Source: Dongia mobilis (GTDB lineage: Bacteria; Pseudomonadota; Alphaproteobacteria; Dongiales; Dongiaceae). Taken from it: 64,000 nucleotides of DNA. Location of the stretch: contig NZ_SNYW01000008.1 in the NCBI RefSeq assembly GCF_004363235.1, forward strand, positions 310,001 through 374,000, read 5' to 3'. The notes beneath the pieces are model-generated. The model was not told the origin of the DNA. It ran no database searches and saw only the letters and a program-made list of their open reading frames with translations. Positions within the stretch are counted from its first letter, which is position 1, and each line of letters starts with the position of its first letter. Positions 5,027 through 8,556 of this stretch are shown piece by piece. Position numbers and translations under genes: made by a program.

Positions 5027-6466
5027 ATGTCCAGTCTTGCCACCACCGATACGTTGTTCTTCGAGCGTGCCGGCCTCGACCTCAAGAAGACCGAGCGACT
5101 GGTGGCGGATTCCCTCAACGGCGCCGATGACGGCGAGCTCTATCTGGAATACGAGCAATCCGAGGCGCTTGCCTTCGACGACGGCAAGCTGAAGAGCGCC
5201 AGTTTCGACACCACCCAGGGCTTCGGCCTGCGCGCCATTGCCGGCGAGGTTTCCGGCTATGCCCATGCCAGCGACCTGTCCGAGGCGGCCCTCGGTCGCG
5301 CCGCGCAGACGGTGAAGGCAGTCCATGCCGGCCATGACGGCCGCATGGATGTGGGCCCGGTCGGCACCAACCGGCAGTTATACGCCCCCGACAATCCGCT
5401 TAACTCGCTTGCCTTCGGCGCCAAGGTGAAGCTGCTGGAGGAAATCGACGCCTATCTGCGCGGCAAGGACCCCCGCGTGCGCCAGGTGATGGCCTCGCTT
5501 TCCGCCTCGTGGTCGGCCATCCAGATCATCCGCGGCGACGGCCAGCGCATGGCCGATGTGCGCCCACTGGTGCGGCTCAACATCTCGGTGATGGTCGAGG
5601 AGGCTGGCCGCATGGAAACCGGTTCCTTCGGCTGCGGCGGCCGCGTCTCCTATGAGGGCGTCGTCGCCGAGGGCAATTGGAAGCAGGGCGCCGACGAGGC
5701 GCTGCGCCAGGCAATCGTCAATCTCTCTTCCGTGCCGGCGCCTGCGGGCGAGATGCCGGTGGTCCTGGGTCCCGGCTGGCCCGGCATCCTCCTCCACGAG
5801 GCAATCGGCCACGGCCTCGAGGGCGATTTCAACCGCAAGCAGACCTCGGCCTTTGCCGGACTGCTCGGCCAGCGCATCGCGGCACCGGGTGTCACGGTCG
5901 TCGATGACGGCACGCTCACCGACCGCCGCGGCTCGCTCACCATCGATGACGAAGGCACACCGACCCAGTGCACCACCTTGATCGAGGATGGCATCCTCAA
6001 GGGCTATATCCAGGACCGGCAGAATGCGCGCCTCATGGGGATGAAACCGACCGGCAACGGCAGGCGCCAGAGCTTCGCCCACAACCCGATGCCGCGCATG
6101 ACCAACACCATCATGCTGGCGGGGAAACATGATCCGGCCGAGGTCCTGGCCAGCGTGAAGAAGGGCCTCTATGCCGTCAATTTCGGCGGCGGACAGGTCG
6201 ACATCACCTCGGGCAAGTTCGTCTTCTCGGCCTCGGAAGCCTATCTCATCGAGGACGGCAAGCTGGGCCCGGCGGTCAAGGGGGCCACCCTCATCGGCAA
6301 CGGTCCCGACGTGCTCACCAAGGTCGGCATGATCGGCAACGACATGAAGCTCGATACAGGTGTGGGCACCTGCGGCAAGGAGGGCCAGGGTGTGCCCGTG
6401 GGTGTCGGCCAGCCGACGCTCCGTGTCGACGCGCTCACCGTGGGTGGCACGGCGGCGCAGGGTTAA
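5027..6466 (+). CDS. tldD: Metalloprotease TldD
   Basis: Zinc metalloprotease subunit that with TldE/PmbA forms a barrel-shaped heterodimer degrading unfolded peptides; in enterobacteria it matures microcin B17 and degrades CcdA. The 479-residue length is typical. The HExxxH zinc motif is H257-E258-x3-H262 in LHEAIGHGLEGDFNRK, followed by the C-terminal conserved blocks including GVGTCGKEGQGVPVGVGQP. No tldE gene is in this window. The downstream gene is compositionally foreign, so the normal neighbour of tldD may have been displaced. Confidence 0.95.
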   Translation: MSSLATTDTLFFERAGLDLKKTERLVADSLNGADDGELYLEYEQSEALAFDDGKLKSASFDTTQGFGLRAIAGEVSGYAHASDLSEAALGRAAQTVKAVHAGHDGRMDVGPVGTNRQLYAPDNPLNSLAFGAKVKLLEEIDAYLRGKDPRVRQVMASLSASWSAIQIIRGDGQRMADVRPLVRLNISVMVEEAGRMETGSFGCGGRVSYEGVVAEGNWKQGADEALRQAIVNLSSVPAPAGEMPVVLGPGWPGILLHEAIGHGLEGDFNRKQTSAFAGLLGQRIAAPGVTVVDDGTLTDRRGSLTIDDEGTPTQCTTLIEDGILKGYIQDRQNARLMGMKPTGNGRRQSFAHNPMPRMTNTIMLAGKHDPAEVLASVKKGLYAVNFGGGQVDITSGKFVFSASEAYLIEDGKLGPAVKGATLIGNGPDVLTKVGMIGNDMKLDTGVGTCGKEGQGVPVGVGQPTLRVDALTVGGTAAQG

Positions 6467-6611
6467 AACATTGAAGCGAATACTATTTGACGGGGCGAAG
6501 AGCGGAAACGTGCTTCTATACTTCTAATTTGTAGAAAAAGTCACTCTACCATAGATTGCTACCAGCGCGATCAGTGGCTAGGCTTCTGCCAGTCCTGCGG
6601 TGGAGCGTGCA

Positions 6612-7802
6612 GTGTTCGAGAATATAATTTTTCGCCAAGCGATGAGGTCGGAAGATCAGTTGGATCTGGGGGCGATCGCTGAAGCACTGTTGTTTTATCG
6701 GCAAGTCCATCTCTTTGCTGATCAACGAATTCTGAGACAACTCGTCGACGGAATGGGAATCGACAATATTGTCGAGTTGATCGACGAGGGGAGCTTGCTT
6801 TTGTCTTTTCTCACGGATCTTCCCGCCATAGAGACTCGTACTAAAGGCAACACCCAAACCTATAAGCCGATACTAACTAGCCTAGTTGGTCATCAGGGCA
6901 GGGGAGAATACTCCCCCGATGAACTATTTGATCGTGCCCTCAACGGGAAGACTAACGTTCTAAAAATTCACGAAGATGATCAGGCGCAATTGATCAAAAG
7001 AGTCCCTCACGAAAAGCTAATCAACTGCGCATTTGGAAATAGTAACCCATTTAACGCTTTCGTGGATGAACTCAAGAATCGAGAATATGGCTCCCCAATT
7101 GCGATAAGTACCATTCTGCATACGGCCCCCTATATCCAGCTTCCGCCGAATCTTTATTTTAGATGGCTGCGGGAGCGTGATGATTACCGTATCGACAGTA
7201 ATATTCCGTTCTCTAAGCTTAGCGAGCTTACCGGTGGCAAAGTTACAGAATCAAAAATACTTTCTAGCGCATTCGAAGCATACTGTGACACGGTACTAGC
7301 ATCCTTTCACGTGTCAGAATTAGCAACTGGTGCACTTACCTCAAGTCTTTTTTCAAACCGGATTCACAACATTCAGGAAAAGCGTGAGCGAAACTCTCGG
7401 CAGATTTCTTCATTTCAACAAATGACAATCGGTGGATCATTTGCAATTCGCGAATGTATTAATTCTCGAGAACAATCATTTCACGACTTTATGCCAATCC
7501 TTAGGAAGTCGCGGTCATTTAGATCGTGGTTGCAAGCAAGTAATCCGAGCATCGACCTAGTGACGGAGTATTTGACGAGAACGGCAGAGCAAACTTGGCT
7601 TACAAAACTACCTGCAAAATCTGCGCGTTTCTTAATAGCCACTGGAGTCGGCGTCGGTATTGAGGCTGCCATTCCTGGTGGGCTGGGAATGGCGGTAGGA
7701 ATCGGAGCCAGCGCATTAGACAATTTCTTGTTAGATCGCATTCTGGGCGGTTGGAAGCCAGGACAGTTCGTTCAGGGGCCATTAAAGAAATTCGTGACGT
7801 AG
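6612..7802 (+). CDS. Uncharacterised AT-rich protein, probably horizontally acquired
   Basis: I do not recognise this 396-residue protein. The GTG at 6612 was chosen because GGAG (6602-6605) sits six bases upstream; an in-frame GTG at 6600 has no such site. Codon use is strikingly AT-rich (for example AAT ATA ATT TTT at the start), unlike every neighbour. The first 330 residues look soluble, acidic-basic mixed and largely helical, with segments such as LHTAPYIQLPPNLYFRWL. The last 60 residues turn hydrophobic and glycine/alanine-rich (around LIATGVGVGIEAAIPGG and GMAVGIGASALDNFLLDRI), ending in GGWKPGQFVQGPLKKF. The tail could insert in or associate with a membrane. It stands alone between tldD and a convergent DUF599 gene, with an AT-rich leader from about 6470. 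A single-gene defence or stress function is possible but only a guess. Confidence 0.8.
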   Translation: MFENIIFRQAMRSEDQLDLGAIAEALLFYRQVHLFADQRILRQLVDGMGIDNIVELIDEGSLLLSFLTDLPAIETRTKGNTQTYKPILTSLVGHQGRGEYSPDELFDRALNGKTNVLKIHEDDQAQLIKRVPHEKLINCAFGNSNPFNAFVDELKNREYGSPIAISTILHTAPYIQLPPNLYFRWLRERDDYRIDSNIPFSKLSELTGGKVTESKILSSAFEAYCDTVLASFHVSELATGALTSSLFSNRIHNIQEKRERNSRQISSFQQMTIGGSFAIRECINSREQSFHDFMPILRKSRSFRSWLQASNPSIDLVTEYLTRTAEQTWLTKLPAKSARFLIATGVGVGIEAAIPGGLGMAVGIGASALDNFLLDRILGGWKPGQFVQGPLKKFVT

Positions 7803-7833
7803 CCGCGTCACTGATGGCAAATTCGGTGCGACA

Positions 7834-8556
7834 CTACCGCCAGCTGGCGTCGTAATATTCCGCGACGCTCTGCTGGCTGCGGCTCTTCAATTGCCGTTTC
7901 AGCAGCACCAGCACGACAATGCCGGTCGCCATGGCGAAGAGGACCGGGTGGATGAACCAGCCCAGCCAGGCCATGGCGAAATAGAAGGCGCGGATGCCGC
8001 CATTGAAGCTCACCACCGCCAATGACATGACACGCGCCGCATGATCGGCGAAGCGATCGCGGGTCGCCGGTTCCGCCGGTGCCAGCGGCGCCGCGCCGAT
8101 CAGGGTGCAGGCGAAATTGAACTGCCGGAGCGCCCAGGTGAATTTGTAGAAGGCGACGATGAAGAGGATGACGAGGCCTAGCACCTTGATCTCGAACATG
8201 ACGATGTCGGCGCGCATGACGAAGCCGAAGGACTGGATCACGGCGTGGGCCGCCGCCGCATTGCCGAGCACGCCGAGGAGGCCGGCGATGATCAGCATCG
8301 AGGTCGAGGCAAAGAAAGTGGTGGAATTCACCGAGTGGCCGGTGAGCCCGGAATCGACGATGCGGTCGTGGCGGTCGATCATGCGCCGCATCCAGGAGCG
8401 ACGCAGGTGATGCATCATCTGGTTGAGGTTCCTGGGCGCCACGTCGTCGGGCGGCAGGAAATCGGCAAAGCGGCCATAGACGAACCACAACAGCAGCATC
8501 CAGAGGAGTGCGAGGCCGTCGGGCCAGGTCCAGTGCTGCAACAGGATATCCGGCAT
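7834..8556 (-). CDS. DUF599 family membrane protein
   Basis: 240-residue inner-membrane protein of unknown function. Hydrophobic segments lie near residues 10-28, 85-110, 120-140, 180-200 and 205-225. Family-like blocks are RRSWMRRMIDRHDRIVDSGL, NSTTFFASTSMLIIAGLLG, FAFYKFTWALRQFNFA-type sequence and FNGGIRAFYFAMAWLGWF. It reads away from the PilZ gene on the same strand, about 30 bases downstream of it, so the two may be co-transcribed. No enzymatic motif is visible. Confidence 0.85.
   Translation of the reverse strand: MPDILLQHWTWPDGLALLWMLLLWFVYGRFADFLPPDDVAPRNLNQMMHHLRRSWMRRMIDRHDRIVDSGLTGHSVNSTTFFASTSMLIIAGLLGVLGNAAAAHAVIQSFGFVMRADIVMFEIKVLGLVILFIVAFYKFTWALRQFNFACTLIGAAPLAPAEPATRDRFADHAARVMSLAVVSFNGGIRAFYFAMAWLGWFIHPVLFAMATGIVVLVLLKRQLKSRSQQSVAEYYDASWR

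Follow-up and report, generated by a model that had tools for sequence, protein, structure and literature searches.

A gene for a 396-aa protein, P0001, has been inserted between tldD and a DUF599 gene in Dongia mobilis. It is a foreign single-gene insertion, and its family behaves as rare mobile cargo that occurs in prophages, a phage-plasmid, an integron and as chromosomal insertions. On balance, and with modest conviction, we favour the explanation that the family consists of undescribed single-gene phage-exclusion proteins, probably of the abortive-infection kind, that move horizontally.

The inserted block stands out by its base composition. In the window (the whole stretch of 64,000 nucleotides analysed here), the 1.37-kb block at positions 6467-7845 has a GC content of 0.46, as compared to a mean of 0.655. 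The lowest value among all 1.2-kb segments of the 64 kb was 0.461, at position 6501 (mean 0.656, sd 0.033), and values below 0.58 were obtained only for segments overlapping the block, the sole such region. This confirmed the original prediction of a sharp drop after tldD and a recovery at the DUF599 gene. The GC content at third codon positions was likewise 0.452 in the P0001 gene versus 0.852 in tldD. The block contains one intact gene, running from a GTG codon at 6612 to a stop at 7802. The longest open reading frame in this frame is 400 aa and starts at GTG 6600; we preferred GTG 6612 because of the GGAG sequence at 6602-6605 and the N-terminus MFE..., which is conserved in the family. The features are as follows.

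5027-6466, plus strand: tldD, resident left flank outside the block, conserved in the congener locus L053; name taken from the original prediction.
6467-7845, no strand: foreign block in the tldD/DUF599 interval, placed by blastn against L053, junction alignment and the GC drop; right edge approximate.
6602-6605, plus strand: GGAG, Shine-Dalgarno-like, 6 nt upstream of the start codon, from reading the sequence.
6612-7802, plus strand: P0001, single 396-aa gene of an unnamed mobile protein family, with full-length relatives at 24-31% identity.
6669-6698, plus strand: N-terminal motif G-x-[IL]-AE-[AS]-L-[LI]-[FY]-Y, from alignments; as a search pattern it retrieved more members.
7404-7796, plus strand: conserved C-terminal module, residues 265-395, from regional conservation and hhalign with L029:1822-3057 and L072.
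7617-7769, plus strand: hydrophobic hairpin and end motif (K336, R339, Gly-rich, D370, LLDR, G380-W381-K-P383-x-Q-F386), from near-invariant residues and hydropathy.
7834-8556, minus strand: DUF599 gene, resident right flank outside the block, with relatives in 13 of 17 family genomes; name taken from the original prediction.

Comparison with the nearest congener in hand (G002, locus L053) revealed an empty site, documented in this one genome. Here, tldD and the DUF599 gene are separated by 28 bp, as compared to about 1.39 kb in the window. The two flanking genes are 86% (tldD) and 79% (DUF599) identical between the genomes, and the blastn homology ends at 6456 and restarts at 7846. In other congeners, a tandem second DUF599 copy is located in the area and the exact junction differs. 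Two tandem DUF599 genes were seen in several congeners (L054-L057), and the second DUF599 copy of the window genome lies on a separate contig (G000:C10:27992-28645). No relatives of P0001 were detected at E <= 0.01 in 96 related genomes, including all six congeners and 10 further family members; none of these 16 other genomes of the genus and family gave a match. A weak additional match elsewhere in the genome of the window (G000:C2, E 0.28) was taken as chance. Thus, the junction comparison proposed in the original prediction, together with the lack of the gene in close relatives, confirmed a single foreign gene of 396 residues. That P0001 should be a housekeeping gene that is undergoing slow amelioration and has disappeared from the relatives is barely credible; its reading frame is intact, but the empty site, the absence from the rest of the family and the deep branching of P0001 among members from other phyla argue against it. 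No integrase marking the element that delivered the gene was present at the window locus. The repeat search gave no direct or inverted repeats closely flanking the block that were convincing as a transposon mark, and a sigma-70 scan found no promoter.

The original prediction had called the gene an orphan, which was wrong, since there are dozens of relatives. Limited scans yielded about 40 of them, mostly full length, and tblastn with P0001 covered residues ~1-395 in most (full length being about 395 residues). They were found in Pseudomonadota, Nitrospirota, Chloroflexota, Armatimonadota, Bacteroidota and one Myxococcales bin. A full-length relative on a Buttiauxella phage-plasmid was 25% identical (tblastn E 3e-36), with a BLASTP alignment spanning the whole length. 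A two-row profile added two members in 398 genomes of the phylum, and a pattern scan of genomes from three rows gave 28 loci. The viral scan detected no relative with P0001 as a single sequence, whereas with an alignment it detected the family in 12 contigs; only alignment-based scans succeeded. The family is rare, with matches in 6 of 301 genomes of one betaproteobacterial family (two of the six distant), in 1 of 5,426 E. coli genomes with the query used, and with one copy in each of 13 carrier genomes.

P0001 carries both motifs of the family, the N-terminal one at residues 20-29 (GAIAEALLFY) and the C-terminal one (K-x-x-R, an invariant D and G-W-[KR]-P-x-x-F) as K336, R339, D370, G380, W381, K382, P383 and F386. 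In the tree, it forms a deep branch (end branch 1.48) within a well-supported set from Chloroflexota, Armatimonadota, Bacteroidota and Pseudomonadota. The phylum labels were not separated beyond chance, an observation that is weak alone since 21 of the 25 labelled rows come from one phylum. The gene had a lower GC content than its flanks at 38 of 40 family loci (mean difference 0.106, Wilcoxon p = 1e-10), in a comparison that includes nearly identical relatives, so that the loci are not fully independent. One contig binned as Moraxellaceae (L010) has a flank GC of 0.69 and a protein very near that of Bordetella (L009), and is probably mis-binned. A remote full-length relative (99.1%) in another genome of the same class as the window's (L005/L074:6872-8125) is located alone beside trpC and directly follows a lexA-like gene.

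At least a dozen prophage contigs carry the family gene. In six P2-like prophages (L075, L076, L077, L082, L083 and L086), BLAST against the P2 proteins placed it antisense between V and S, in the orf30 slot. The small V gene was missed by the crude ORF finder in L076 and L086, as was W in L076, the surrounding order being the same. These S-V members have a GC content of 0.37-0.38 as compared to 0.54-0.56 in the flanks. In L078, the gene is located between Q and A, which is the old/tin slot of P2, in two further P2-like prophages (L079 and L080) it comes after D, and in L023/L081 it lies between virion-gene ORFs of a prophage. In the record of P2 itself, S and V flank orf30, and old/tin comes after A. 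The RefSeq annotation of E. coli UTAK-6 shows the order baseplate V, hypothetical protein and virion morphogenesis protein (S), the family member being WP_047090168.1, a RefSeq 'hypothetical protein'; this stretch is identical to L075 and may represent the same isolate lineage rather than an independent case. Both the S-V (orf30) and A-Q (old/tin) slots have been named as moron regions in P2-like phages (PMC6823313, PMC3091744), and antiviral systems that have been tested are known to accumulate in the A-Q slot, which serves as their reservoir (PMC9122126). By position between conserved phage genes and by foreign composition, the genes in L075-L078, L082, L083, L086 and UTAK-6 are putative morons. 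The window copy is not in a phage, being flanked by tldD and DUF599 at a site that is empty in L053.

Based on its gene content (RepA, dnaE, exonuclease and CobT-like genes), we infer that the Buttiauxella plasmid is a phage-plasmid. Two unnamed genes lie upstream on the same strand (L003:8197-9809), the second with a HELSH zinc-protease-like motif. The prophage copies would also be expected if the gene served temperate phages in counter-defence or superinfection control and was captured later by chromosomes. We regard this as highly improbable, since members are mostly located outside phages, no match was found by tblastn with P0001 and three relatives in 50,697 deposited phage genomes, and the moron slots and host defence genes beside the family speak against it. 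The relatives used as queries included two prophage members, which gave no match in the phage records, P2 among them.

In Vibrio mexicanus (L013), the gene is an integron cassette. Five attC-like repeats (TAACAA...) follow successive genes, the first of them 7 bp after the stop codon of the family gene. Vibrio integron arrays have been reported to hold many anti-phage genes (PMC12409362). In a general repeat search, as distinct from one with a dedicated attC model, no attC-like repeat was found beside the window copy.

The original prediction had proposed that the neighbours of homologues be inspected for defence genes, and such genes were indeed observed. An MmeI-like type IIG restriction enzyme is located 28 bp upstream of the family gene in L015, an nSTAND NTPase ends 45 bp upstream in L020 (Pedobacter), NsnA/GmrSD-like genes are nearby in L016 and L021, and an OLD/AriA-like ATPase in L006. 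The ten neighbours scanned were chosen by eye, and these five defence neighbourhoods represent a suggestive pattern rather than an enrichment measured against matched controls. The NTPase of L020 (1302 aa) has a weak endonuclease match, and a 195-aa protein with a hydrophobic start is encoded within 6 bp downstream of the family gene (L020:6047-11783); the three may form an operon. An all-against-all blastp of the neighbours revealed no conserved partner gene, and the clusters that did recur, sensor kinases and ABC-type ATPases, lay at distances that showed no relation to one another. In two loci (L012:11334-12191 and L014:7250-8158), a nearby unnamed gene starts like a PIN-type nuclease, as judged by eye, and has no Pfam or PADLOC match. 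Many chromosomal copies, including that in the window, have housekeeping genes around them and no defence gene in the vicinity. Thus, the suggestion of a one-gene defence effector fits the moron slots, the phage-plasmid, the integron and the defence neighbours, and fits less well with these chromosomal copies.

It is improbable that the gene is a self-standing toxin or an addiction-like gene which keeps its mobile element stable without sensing phage. A single gene with a hydrophobic hairpin would agree with such a role, as would the toxin-antitoxin-like genes that adjoin the family gene, as judged by eye, in Vibrio L013 and L032. However, no small antitoxin gene is conserved alongside, and the gene is fixed singly in chromosomes where no mobile element surrounds it.

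Sequence and structure searches gave no name to the family. P0001 matched nothing in Pfam, PADLOC or NCBIfam even at E <= 10, and 26 to 34 members searched against Pfam, NCBIfam and PHROGs gave scattered weak hits that differed from member to member. No HMM of PADLOC 2.0.0 matched any of 26 members (best value 0.032, in one member); this release dates from 2023, and a defence system published later could include the family. Searches of PDB sequences returned nothing credible, and no recognised catalytic motif was found in the family. Foldseek, with two models against the PDB and one against viral models, gave no match at E <= 0.001. Its top names (Avs5 filament, cyclodipeptide synthase, malate dehydrogenase and RSV nucleoprotein) had low probabilities and low TM-scores and were considered noise. 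Two P2 proteins, Orf30 and Fun(Z), were rejected as homologues on hhalign profile E-values of 0.53 and 0.4, respectively. We conclude that the family, and probably its fold, is absent from every library used. The original view that the protein resembles no family is therefore borne out, and structure prediction with remote homology searches, as it had proposed, gave no confident match to a housekeeping family.

The main rival to phage exclusion is a cargo gene that aids the lysogen by other means (stress, surface change or competition), with a C-terminus that is structural or lipid-binding. It agrees with the lack of matches to the defence libraries, with the several chromosomal copies located alone beside housekeeping genes, and with the presence of non-defensive genes, such as partition or virulence genes, in P2-like moron slots (PMC9122126). 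Against this, the Q-A slot, the S-V slot, the integron cassette and the defence neighbours together make up the usual signature of defence genes, and the spread is sporadic with a low GC content in almost every host. We consider this rival unlikely, although far less so than the toxin and counter-defence explanations.

The AlphaFold models of P0001 (26 rows, mean pLDDT 72.7, pTM 0.71) and of member L025 (34 rows, mean pLDDT 75.5, pTM 0.68) agreed with each other. A mixed alpha/beta part is modelled with confidence as far as residue ~230-250, helices follow up to ~330, and from ~320-330 onwards the structure is no longer confident, with a pLDDT below 50 in the hairpin region. Conservation showed the opposite pattern to model confidence, being highest over the first 30 residues and over the C-terminal module (266-396) and lowest in the middle. 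Near-invariant residues include E24, Y29, F268, F303, W306, Y320, K336, R339, D370, W381, P383 and F386. The hydrophobic, Gly-rich tail of the original prediction is real in P0001 (residues about 339-375), and a hydrophobic C-terminus is conserved. The richness in glycine is restricted to the window's clade, the tail is shorter in most relatives, and the conserved part is the whole module at ~265-395. As for a membrane-active tail, the hydrophobic stretch was found, while its membrane nature is borderline and the prediction of low confidence: the maximum 19-residue Kyte-Doolittle value is 1.57 in P0001 and 1.05-1.8 across members.

Two distant sets of proteins align with the C-terminal module only, represented by L029:1822-3057 (hhalign 95.5%, E 1.4e-8) and L072 (residues 262-386, hhalign 97.3%, E 1.7e-11). 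The former, on the minus strand, is another, distant relative located 2.5 kb away from the family gene on the same Myxococcales contig, with a PLD-like ORF (by eye) between them. L072 and L073 (L072:6601-7881 and L073:6927-8240, minus strand) are Burkholderiales relatives encoded by lone AT-rich genes in GC-rich surroundings. The C-terminal-only alignments fit a module that would serve as a shared effector with exchangeable front parts.

Returning to phage exclusion, the S-V and Q-A slots, the phage-plasmid, the integron cassette, the defence-gene neighbours and the AT-rich, sporadic spread lead us to think that phage defence is probably, though by no means certainly, the function for which the family has been selected. 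In that case, the variable alpha/beta part at the N-terminus (residues 1 to ~230) would sense the phage, or would stay closed until a component of the phage is present. As the effector, the C-terminal module would act through its hydrophobic hairpin, most likely by insertion into the inner membrane, by docking to it or by oligomerisation, and the infected cell would halt before phage release. Given defence, an effector step at the membrane or through oligomers is a tentative proposal that we hold at somewhat below even confidence; it is weaker than the defence reading because of the borderline hydropathy and the disorder in the model. Less likely than not is the broadest form of the hypothesis, in which a one-gene anti-phage effector family with a new fold, present in five or more phyla and built from a conserved C-terminal hairpin module and varied N-terminal sensors, moves across the moron slots of P2-like phages as well as phage-plasmids, integrons and bare chromosomal sites. 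If the gene protects cells from phage, it would be a one-gene defence of unknown fold, for which a standard E. coli host offers an immediate test. The family also provides the S-V (orf30) slot with a single-gene occupant that recurs there and is likewise seen in the validated antiviral A-Q slot, and one cargo gene is seen to use prophage, phage-plasmid, integron and chromosomal settings.

Among known systems, the closest parallels are the orf30, TO-region (old, tin) and Z-fun morons of P2, which occupy the same slots of P2-like phages and are AT-rich genes beside the phage's own; the antisense single-gene layout in S-V is common to orf30 and the family. However, Orf30 has 261 aa as compared to 398 aa in the family, which has no sequence relation to it and is found outside phages as well. 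Single-gene abortive-infection proteins that have a hydrophobic or membrane effector part resemble P0001 in having one gene, a soluble-looking N-terminus, a hydrophobic C-terminus and a sporadic occurrence, whereas the family matches no PADLOC model, its membrane nature is borderline and its role is putative. The defence cassettes of Vibrio chromosomal integrons resemble L013, likewise a cassette with an attC-like site, and differ from the window copy, which has no adjoining integrase and beside which the general repeat search showed no attC-like repeat. The Burkholderiales proteins L072 and L073 share the C-terminal module and the lone AT-rich setting with P0001; unlike P0001, they end in what reads as a SEC-C zinc motif (RNxPCSCGSGKKYKQCCG) and have an N-terminal part that does not align. 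The single-gene exclusion moron is a kind of element that is already known, and the protein family is new to the libraries used.
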